NCBI RefSeq assembly: GCF_900168065.1
Contig: NZ_FUZZ01000005.1
Span: 558,001 to 622,000, forward strand
Direction of reading: 5' to 3'
From: Chitinophaga ginsengisegetis
Lineage (GTDB): Bacteria; Bacteroidota; Bacteroidia; Chitinophagales; Chitinophagaceae
Length of the DNA: 64,000 bases
Shown piece after piece: positions 35,700 through 35,823 of the stretch (positions within the stretch are counted from its first letter, which is position 1; each line of letters opens with the position of its first letter). The translations under genes were made by a program, and so were the position numbers. The notes below the pieces were generated by a model. That model was not told the origin of the DNA and searched no databases. It saw nothing but the letters and a program-made list of their open reading frames with translations.

Positions 35700-35790
35700 T
35701 GTTTCAGAATGGGGTGGTCTGGTAAAACAGATCTGAGATCAAACCCAAGCACCTGATCTGGGTAATGCCAGCGTAGGGAAAACGAAACAA
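35700..35790 (+). promoter_or_regulatory. TPP (thiamine pyrophosphate) riboswitch
   Basis: The THI-box core is nearly complete on the plus strand: GGGGTGG (35711-35717), CTGAGAT (35733-35739), ACCC (35743-35746), ACCTGATCTGGGTAATGCCA (35751-35770) and GCGTAGGGAA (35771-35780). The expected helices form: P1 TGTTTC (35700-35705) with GAAACA (35784-35789), P2 GGGT with ACCC, a P3 hairpin TCTG/CAGA, and a P5 hairpin CTGG/CCAG. The terminator at 35796 is the obvious expression platform. No thiamine gene follows; the next sequence is the 3' end of the opposing universal-stress gene. Confidence 0.93.
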
Positions 35791-35795
35791 CTAAC

Positions 35796-35823
35796 AGCTC
35801 CGGCCACAACCGGAGCTTTTTTT
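35796..35823 (+). terminator. Intrinsic terminator of the TPP riboswitch
   Basis: AGCTCCGG (35796-35803) pairs with CCGGAGCT (35810-35817), loop CCACAA, followed by a T-run that overlaps the stop codon of the convergent universal-stress gene. It begins 6 nt after riboswitch helix P1. Confidence 0.9.

Follow-up and report, generated by a model that had tools for sequence, protein, structure and literature searches.

A TPP aptamer and terminator next to a convergent stress gene

The window, a 64,000-nt stretch of the Chitinophaga ginsengisegetis genome, was searched with Rfam covariance models. The only match at gathering thresholds was a TPP riboswitch (THI element, RF00059) on the plus strand at 35700–35796 (model positions 1–105; 55.8 bits, with a gathering score of 54.3; E = 3.1e-8). 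The first-pass annotation, made from the letters alone, had recognized a TPP riboswitch here and named this search as a check; the score is above gathering, and the anatomy and coordinates that it gave were correct. The aptamer core, P2–P5, spans 35711–35779 and is intact, with the CUGAGA, YTGA and GCG segments all present. Four of the five pairs of Rfam's own P1 are non-standard at this element, and in the predicted fold the aptamer is closed by a shifted P1, in which UGUUUC (35700–35705) pairs with GAAACA (35784–35789). Six nucleotides behind P1, also as first described, is an intrinsic terminator, AGCTCCGG-CCACAA-CCGGAGCT followed by a T-run (35796–35823; stem 35796–35803/35810–35817, T-run 35817–35823). 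The fold of 35695–35826 has an energy of −41.3 kcal/mol (z = −3.18), which was matched by 1 of 200 shuffles. On the same strand, a promoter-like element, TGGCACGATTTTTCG, lies at 35670–35684 and contains a YGGCAY motif that recurs among related elements (see below); a putative transcription start at 35694–35697 is placed about 24 nt past the GG of this element, just 5′ of P1.

The gene facing the element (35822–36670, minus strand) encodes a universal stress protein (Usp; PF00582, 79.3 bits), and its stop codon at 35822–35824 overlaps the T-run of the terminator. The next plus-strand gene, identified as a MacB_PCD/FtsX permease, starts at 36927, more than 1.1 kb away; both neighbours agree with the earlier description. 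A LuxR-type response regulator gene (PF00072 and PF00196; 34877–35560, plus strand) ends 140 nt upstream of the aptamer, and a terminator scan found no terminator-like site on the plus strand between the two. A lantibiotic dehydratase gene (Lant_dehydr_N/C; 29562–32675, minus strand) and a LanC-like gene (33560–34837, plus strand) are also near the element and probably constitute a lanthipeptide locus.

Window-like elements in Chitinophaga and its family

The 7.9-Mb genome that contains the window has three TPP matches in total, and 97 RF00059 matches were detected in 36 Chitinophaga genomes (this one and 35 others). All 97 loci were inspected with 4-kb flanks where the contig allowed and sorted by sequence and context into 74 thiamine leaders and 23 window-like elements (in 22 genomes), the latter with a shifted P1 and a terminator and without a thiamine gene. 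The downstream clusters of the leaders were ThiC (n = 36), TonB-dependent receptor (n = 36) and hydroxyethylthiazole kinase (n = 2), with each Pfam name resting on one representative; five leaders for which the automatic call found a short or spurious ORF before ThiC were counted as ThiC leaders.

A covariance model of the class (R1), covering P2–P5 and the terminator, was built from the 23 elements. It yielded 51 matches of 80.8–126.5 bits in 48 of 79 Chitinophaga genomes (three with two copies) and no match of at least 80 bits in the remaining 31, and the class is separated by a gap from the next match at 70.8 bits, where ordinary leaders start. Strong R1 matches were also obtained outside Chitinophaga among 394 genomes drawn from the family, of which 41 places were used (40 genomes, 23 genera; 119.6 to 76.3 bits). 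Lower-scoring matches were not taken in, and one match at a contig edge (G204, L213; 95.3 bits) and three second matches (G228, G138 and G361; 76.7–77.2 bits) were left out. The comparisons use 92 members, 51 from Chitinophaga and 41 from outside it, representing 24 genera in all; many are syntenic copies, so the counts are not independent and overstate independence. Four loci stand outside the member count, i.e., L194 and L195, which resemble thiC-type leaders by sequence, and L196 and L197, which have a tandem form.

A class-level survey of 395 genomes gave 28 places outside the window's genome, one of which (G129) belongs to the same family as Chitinophaga. A ThiC or TonB-receptor match was present downstream or in the flanks at 15 of the 19 loci checked. 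The four loci without one (L246, L247, L255 and L264, from four different families) were the same four that had been picked beforehand by sequence as window-like. Both the upstream element and a terminator are present at L255; L246 and L264 combine the element with a hairpin whose T-run is weak, and L247 has a terminator but not the element.

Conservation of P1, the aptamer core and the terminator

All 92 members can form a P1 of at least 5 bp; 65 different helices occur, and each of the four inner positions shows five or six types of base pair. The spacing between P1 and P2, often an A-rich internal loop, ranges from 0 upward. The mean energy of the members' own P1 duplexes was −10.6 kcal/mol, as against −6.3 kcal/mol when partners were swapped between the 92 members; the own duplex was better than the swapped median in 86 members and than 90% of the swapped ones in 51, and it beat all 50 linker shuffles in only 39. 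P1 thus seems, from these comparisons, to be selected to pair.

The core is retained across the class, with CUGAGA in 92/92 members, GCG at the 3′ side of P5 in 89 and YTGA in 85; the departures among the 92 concern the YTGA segment in seven members and GCG in three. Given that these segments are kept, the TPP site of the window element looks intact. In a syntenic trio formed by the window locus, L038 and L121, identity to the window locus was 86/90 (L038) and 84/90 (L121) in the aptamer, 14/15 and 12/15 in the upstream motif, and 35/36 and 28/36 in the linker and terminator; the preceding spacer reached only 87/108 and 68/108.

A hairpin with a T-run lies 10–25 nt past P4 in every member. By a strict terminator criterion the numbers were 91/92 members versus 3/74 thiamine leaders, where members found by R1 were selected for a terminator because the model includes it, and the Rfam-found set (23/23) is free of that bias. 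Three TonB-receptor leaders (L045, L095 and L127) have a hairpin, AGGTAAG...CTTACCT, with a T-run directly after P4; its apparent overlap with the 3′ strand of P1 raises the possibility that at these leaders TPP binding prevents termination instead of causing it.

Some members vary the basic form. Those of genus g93 (L214, L216, L218, L222, L226, L227, L231 and L232) have a long insertion in P3 of the aptamer, and at locus L225 (G311) the RNA occurs twice on one strand, at 2004–2138 and, about 5 kb away, at 7159–7291, where both copies have a TGGCAC element and a terminator of their own.

No thiamine gene is linked to the class

The first-pass annotation had offered the loss of a thiamine gene as one explanation for the isolated element, and synteny in related genomes as a way of seeing whether such a gene follows it elsewhere. 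Both were addressed with 169 same-genus proteins from the operons of the 74 leaders, which represent ThiC, the TonB receptor, two TMP-TENI clusters, Phos_pyr_kin and thiazole kinase. None of the 92 members had a tblastn match to this set in its flanks (threshold 1e-5; at least 1257 nt on each side), whereas all 74 leaders have a thiamine or transport gene downstream in the sense orientation. A blastp search of 594 called flank ORFs yielded one weak match, over 75 residues of the TonB-receptor cluster and 3.3 kb from L178. The relatives of the window element are thus likewise unaccompanied by a thiamine gene, and the genus retains separate TPP leaders at thiC, TonB-receptor or thiazole-kinase genes, which speaks against the loss.

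Genomic neighbourhoods of the members

The nearest downstream gene is in sense orientation in 48 of the 92 members and convergent in 44. The downstream genes fall into 24 clusters, apart from 36 that are unclustered; ORF calling was automatic, with a minimum of 90 aa, and individual neighbour assignments may be wrong. In five members, the window element and four others from Chitinophaga, the closest gene downstream is a convergent Usp gene. Usp is found upstream on the opposite strand in nine members and downstream in sense in three, and no Usp-cluster gene occurs within 1.5 kb in 75 of the 92. The first-pass proposal that the switch would, at low TPP, let transcription run antisense into the stress gene consequently does not generalize to the class.

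Genes of the DUF4142, Usp, DUF892 and KGG type generally serve stress responses. Clusters of these types (DUF4142, Usp, DUF892 or KGG-like) are present within 1.5 kb of 49/92 members versus 0/74 leaders, and both Usp and DUF4142 were found in three arrangements around members. The DUF4142, DUF892 and DUF763 clusters were named from one representative each; cluster c32 we take to be KGG, and c18 presumably encodes endonuclease V. Outside the genus there were 106 further candidate neighbours, and the proteins of 30 of these were scanned. Three were DUF326, DUF6496 and DUF2383; most of the others came from unrelated families (MFS, GNAT, SDR and glycosidases, among others), with no single theme. 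At one locus (L208, G303), the upstream divergent gene (1878–3134, plus strand) encodes transketolase, a TPP-dependent enzyme; this is a single case.

To seek evidence of an antiterminator, the co-variation of the 5′ arm of the terminator with the member's own aptamer was evaluated by swapping between members, in a test without a positive control. The own and swapped values were nearly the same (−8.9 and −9.2 kcal/mol), and the own value was better than the swapped median in 42 of the 92 members. Given that no co-varying antiterminator was detected in this test, the terminator looks constitutive and not TPP-controlled.

A promoter-like element upstream of the aptamer

YGGCAY is present within 75 nt upstream of P2 in 77 of the 92 members, 75 of which have it at 38–53 nt. 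It was found in the same range in 4 of the 74 thiamine leaders and in 10% of random 75-nt windows. Alignment of the members on this motif gives the consensus TGGCAYGATTTTTCA. The upstream gene is on the opposite strand in 54 members, and these would need a promoter of their own for that reason.

The motif resembles the −24 half of sigma-54 promoters, for which PMC12316311 gives the consensus TGGCAC N5-7 TTGCT, and a gene for a sigma-54 DNA-binding domain is present in the genome. The −24 GG is there by selection of the set, but the −12 half differs, reading TTTC, TTCG or similar in most element-bearing members, and the −12 GC is absent in most, with CG in its place in the window. Because of the missing −12 GC, the element was not assigned to sigma-54 promoters, and that identity was rejected.

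Of the 15 members without YGGCAY, 13 are directly behind a DUF4142-type gene; the other two, outside this arrangement, are L228, which has a near match, and L230. One of the 13 (L193) resembles the arrangement by sequence, with the gene not called, leaving 12 that were tested. In these, P2 starts 15–35 nt past the stop codon, and the DUF4142 gene itself has TGGCAY, mostly as TGGCAYAATCTTTTCA, 39–49 nt before its called start in 11 of the 12 (L040, L061, L087, L096, L128, L183, L185, L186, L188, L189 and L192). The TGGCAY element before DUF4142 genes is a candidate for a stress promoter type of Chitinophaga. More generally, YGGCAYN5TT occurs within 150 nt upstream of 13 of the 20 DUF4142 genes at the loci versus 20 of 868 other genes, and for the remaining stress-type genes the counts were 3 of 13 for DUF892 (a single gene accounts for two of these), 1 of 16 for Usp and 0 of 6 for KGG-like genes.

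In the window's genome, a relaxed form of the motif pattern was not clearly enriched (seven matches versus five for the reversed control), and a strict form had two matches versus none for reversed controls, the second being 31 nt before an ATG. Among the six Usp loci of this genome, L266 has TGGCATTAAATTTTCA 87 nt before the domain, and in L265 a match to the motif precedes the domain by 116 nt; for the Usp gene of the window there is a near match only (TGGCAGTAATTTCG), and the other three are without a motif of that form. The two DUF4142 loci differ, with the motif in L282 and not in L281, and the single DUF892 locus has no upstream motif.

Evidence for a proposed independent small-RNA gene and against other readings

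We consider it fairly likely, on the sequence comparisons described here, that the window element is an independent gene for a small RNA of about 128 nt with a TPP aptamer, and not a leader. The first-pass annotation had also suggested that the switch makes a regulatory RNA. This is supported in outline, in that a unit of upstream motif, aptamer, pairing-conserving P1 and terminator recurs in 24 genera as its neighbours change; its regulatory role is putative.

Two other readings would tie the element to genes at the locus, present or past. If antisense read-through at low TPP controlled the convergent usp gene, the overlap of its stop codon with the T-run and the same arrangement in four other Chitinophaga members would be accounted for. 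Usp is, however, upstream on the opposite strand or downstream in sense in other members and absent within 1.5 kb in most, and the swap test revealed no co-varying antiterminator; with a convergent downstream Usp in only 5/92 members, antisense control was rejected as a general function, and we regard it as very unlikely. If the element were an ordinary TPP leader whose thiamine gene had been lost, this could explain why the window's Rfam score is close to the cut-off, as well as the altered cores of a subgroup (L049, L056, L099 and L104) and of the tandem form (L196 and L197). Yet CUGAGA and a P1 helix of 5 bp or more are retained throughout the 92 members, all of these lack a thiamine-gene match in their flanks, and the aptamer of the syntenic trio is conserved above the preceding spacer. 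A lost thiamine gene was rejected on these grounds, and such a remnant is scarcely to be expected here.

The remaining readings concern what kind of RNA carries the aptamer and what it binds. The aptamer and terminator may form the end of the upstream gene's mRNA, as a 3′-UTR element through which TPP controls stability or from which the RNA is cut. This agrees with the 13 Chitinophaga members directly behind a DUF4142-type gene and, in the window, with the same-strand response regulator gene and the terminator-free 140 nt that follow it. We nevertheless judge it rather unlikely, since the upstream gene is divergent in 54/92 members, which argues against a 3′-UTR for those, the promoter-like element precedes the aptamer itself in 77/92, and the upstream genes differ among members. 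The varied orientation and clusters of the downstream genes, taken with the divergent upstream genes, imply that the class as a whole is accounted for neither by regulation of the next gene nor by a 3′-UTR function. A structural RNA that is conserved but has put the TPP fold to use with another ligand, or with none, would be in line with the altered P1 and with the tandem form, in which two altered aptamers are enclosed by one outer P1 and followed by one terminator (L196 in G075, and L197 in G095 on the minus strand, from about locus position 4000). UGAGA, the segment that we take to contact the pyrimidine ring of TPP, is changed to UCAGA in the first tandem copy, and the second has diverged further, making this form a candidate for ligand change or loss. 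For the window element itself such a reading appears improbable, given its intact core and the retention of CUGAGA in 92/92 and GCG in 89/92 members, a count that does not include the tandem forms.

We therefore return to the small-RNA gene, for which the following mechanism is proposed. Transcription would begin near 35696, directed by the promoter-like element at 35670–35684, and the resulting RNA of about 128 nt would fold as a TPP aptamer closed by P1 and end at the terminator at 35796–35823, which appears constitutive. The RNA presumably binds TPP, and binding may alter its stability or a pairing surface and thereby its action in trans. It would belong to a stress programme, which it would couple to thiamine status; this link is suggested because DUF4142, Usp and DUF892 neighbours recur and DUF4142 genes share the upstream element. 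Taken together, the small RNA is probably trans-acting and tied to stress genes, and we view the element as a probable regulatory RNA, not as a broken switch; its relatives recur across the family of this soil bacterium. A broader view, to which we lean only tentatively and with more doubt than assurance, is that Bacteroidota, chiefly Chitinophagaceae, possess an old small-RNA family in which a TPP aptamer was freed from thiamine genes and became a stress-linked, trans-acting sensor, with a DUF763-linked subgroup and a tandem form that are changing or losing their ligand.

Relation to known TPP elements and trans-acting riboswitches

The window element has in common with the TPP riboswitch the aptamer fold, the conserved core and a score above gathering, and differs in having no thiamine gene, a shifted P1, and a promoter-like element and terminator that make it a closed unit. 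Metabolite aptamers in small RNAs have precedents in SreA of Listeria, a SAM riboswitch that acts on prfA, and in EutX/Rli55, a riboswitch-containing sRNA that sequesters a response regulator. These have SAM or B12 aptamers, are from Firmicutes, and are derived from leaders or have a separate protein-binding module. The window class is likewise a metabolite aptamer in a putative small RNA, but the aptamer is for TPP, and no protein-binding module was identified. Trans-acting riboswitches, in which a metabolite aptamer in a small RNA acts away from its locus, are rare according to PMC7266159. A search of open-licence papers, covering titles and the beginnings of abstracts (for free-standing forms, in Bacteroidota), found no free-standing or trans-acting TPP-aptamer RNA.

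In Bacteroides thetaiotaomicron, PMC7366714 places TPP elements in the 5′ UTRs of BT_0653 (thiS), BT_2390 (an outer-membrane thiamine transporter) and BT_2396. These elements come from the same phylum, share the aptamer and can be compared with the Chitinophaga leaders of ThiC and TonB-receptor genes; the three described there all precede thiamine or transport genes as 5′ UTRs, whereas the window class has no such gene. The same paper dates the first trans-encoded noncoding RNA with identified targets in Bacteroidota to a 2020 report (PMC7366714).

If the proposed reading is true, conserved free-standing TPP-aptamer RNAs would represent a widespread natural metabolite-sensing small RNA, and a 'TPP riboswitch' annotated where there is no thiamine gene may point to an RNA gene instead of a gene loss. 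The Bacteroidota would gain a testable new noncoding RNA of the trans type, and a concrete hypothesis follows from the link to stress genes, namely that vitamin B1 status may feed into the stress response.
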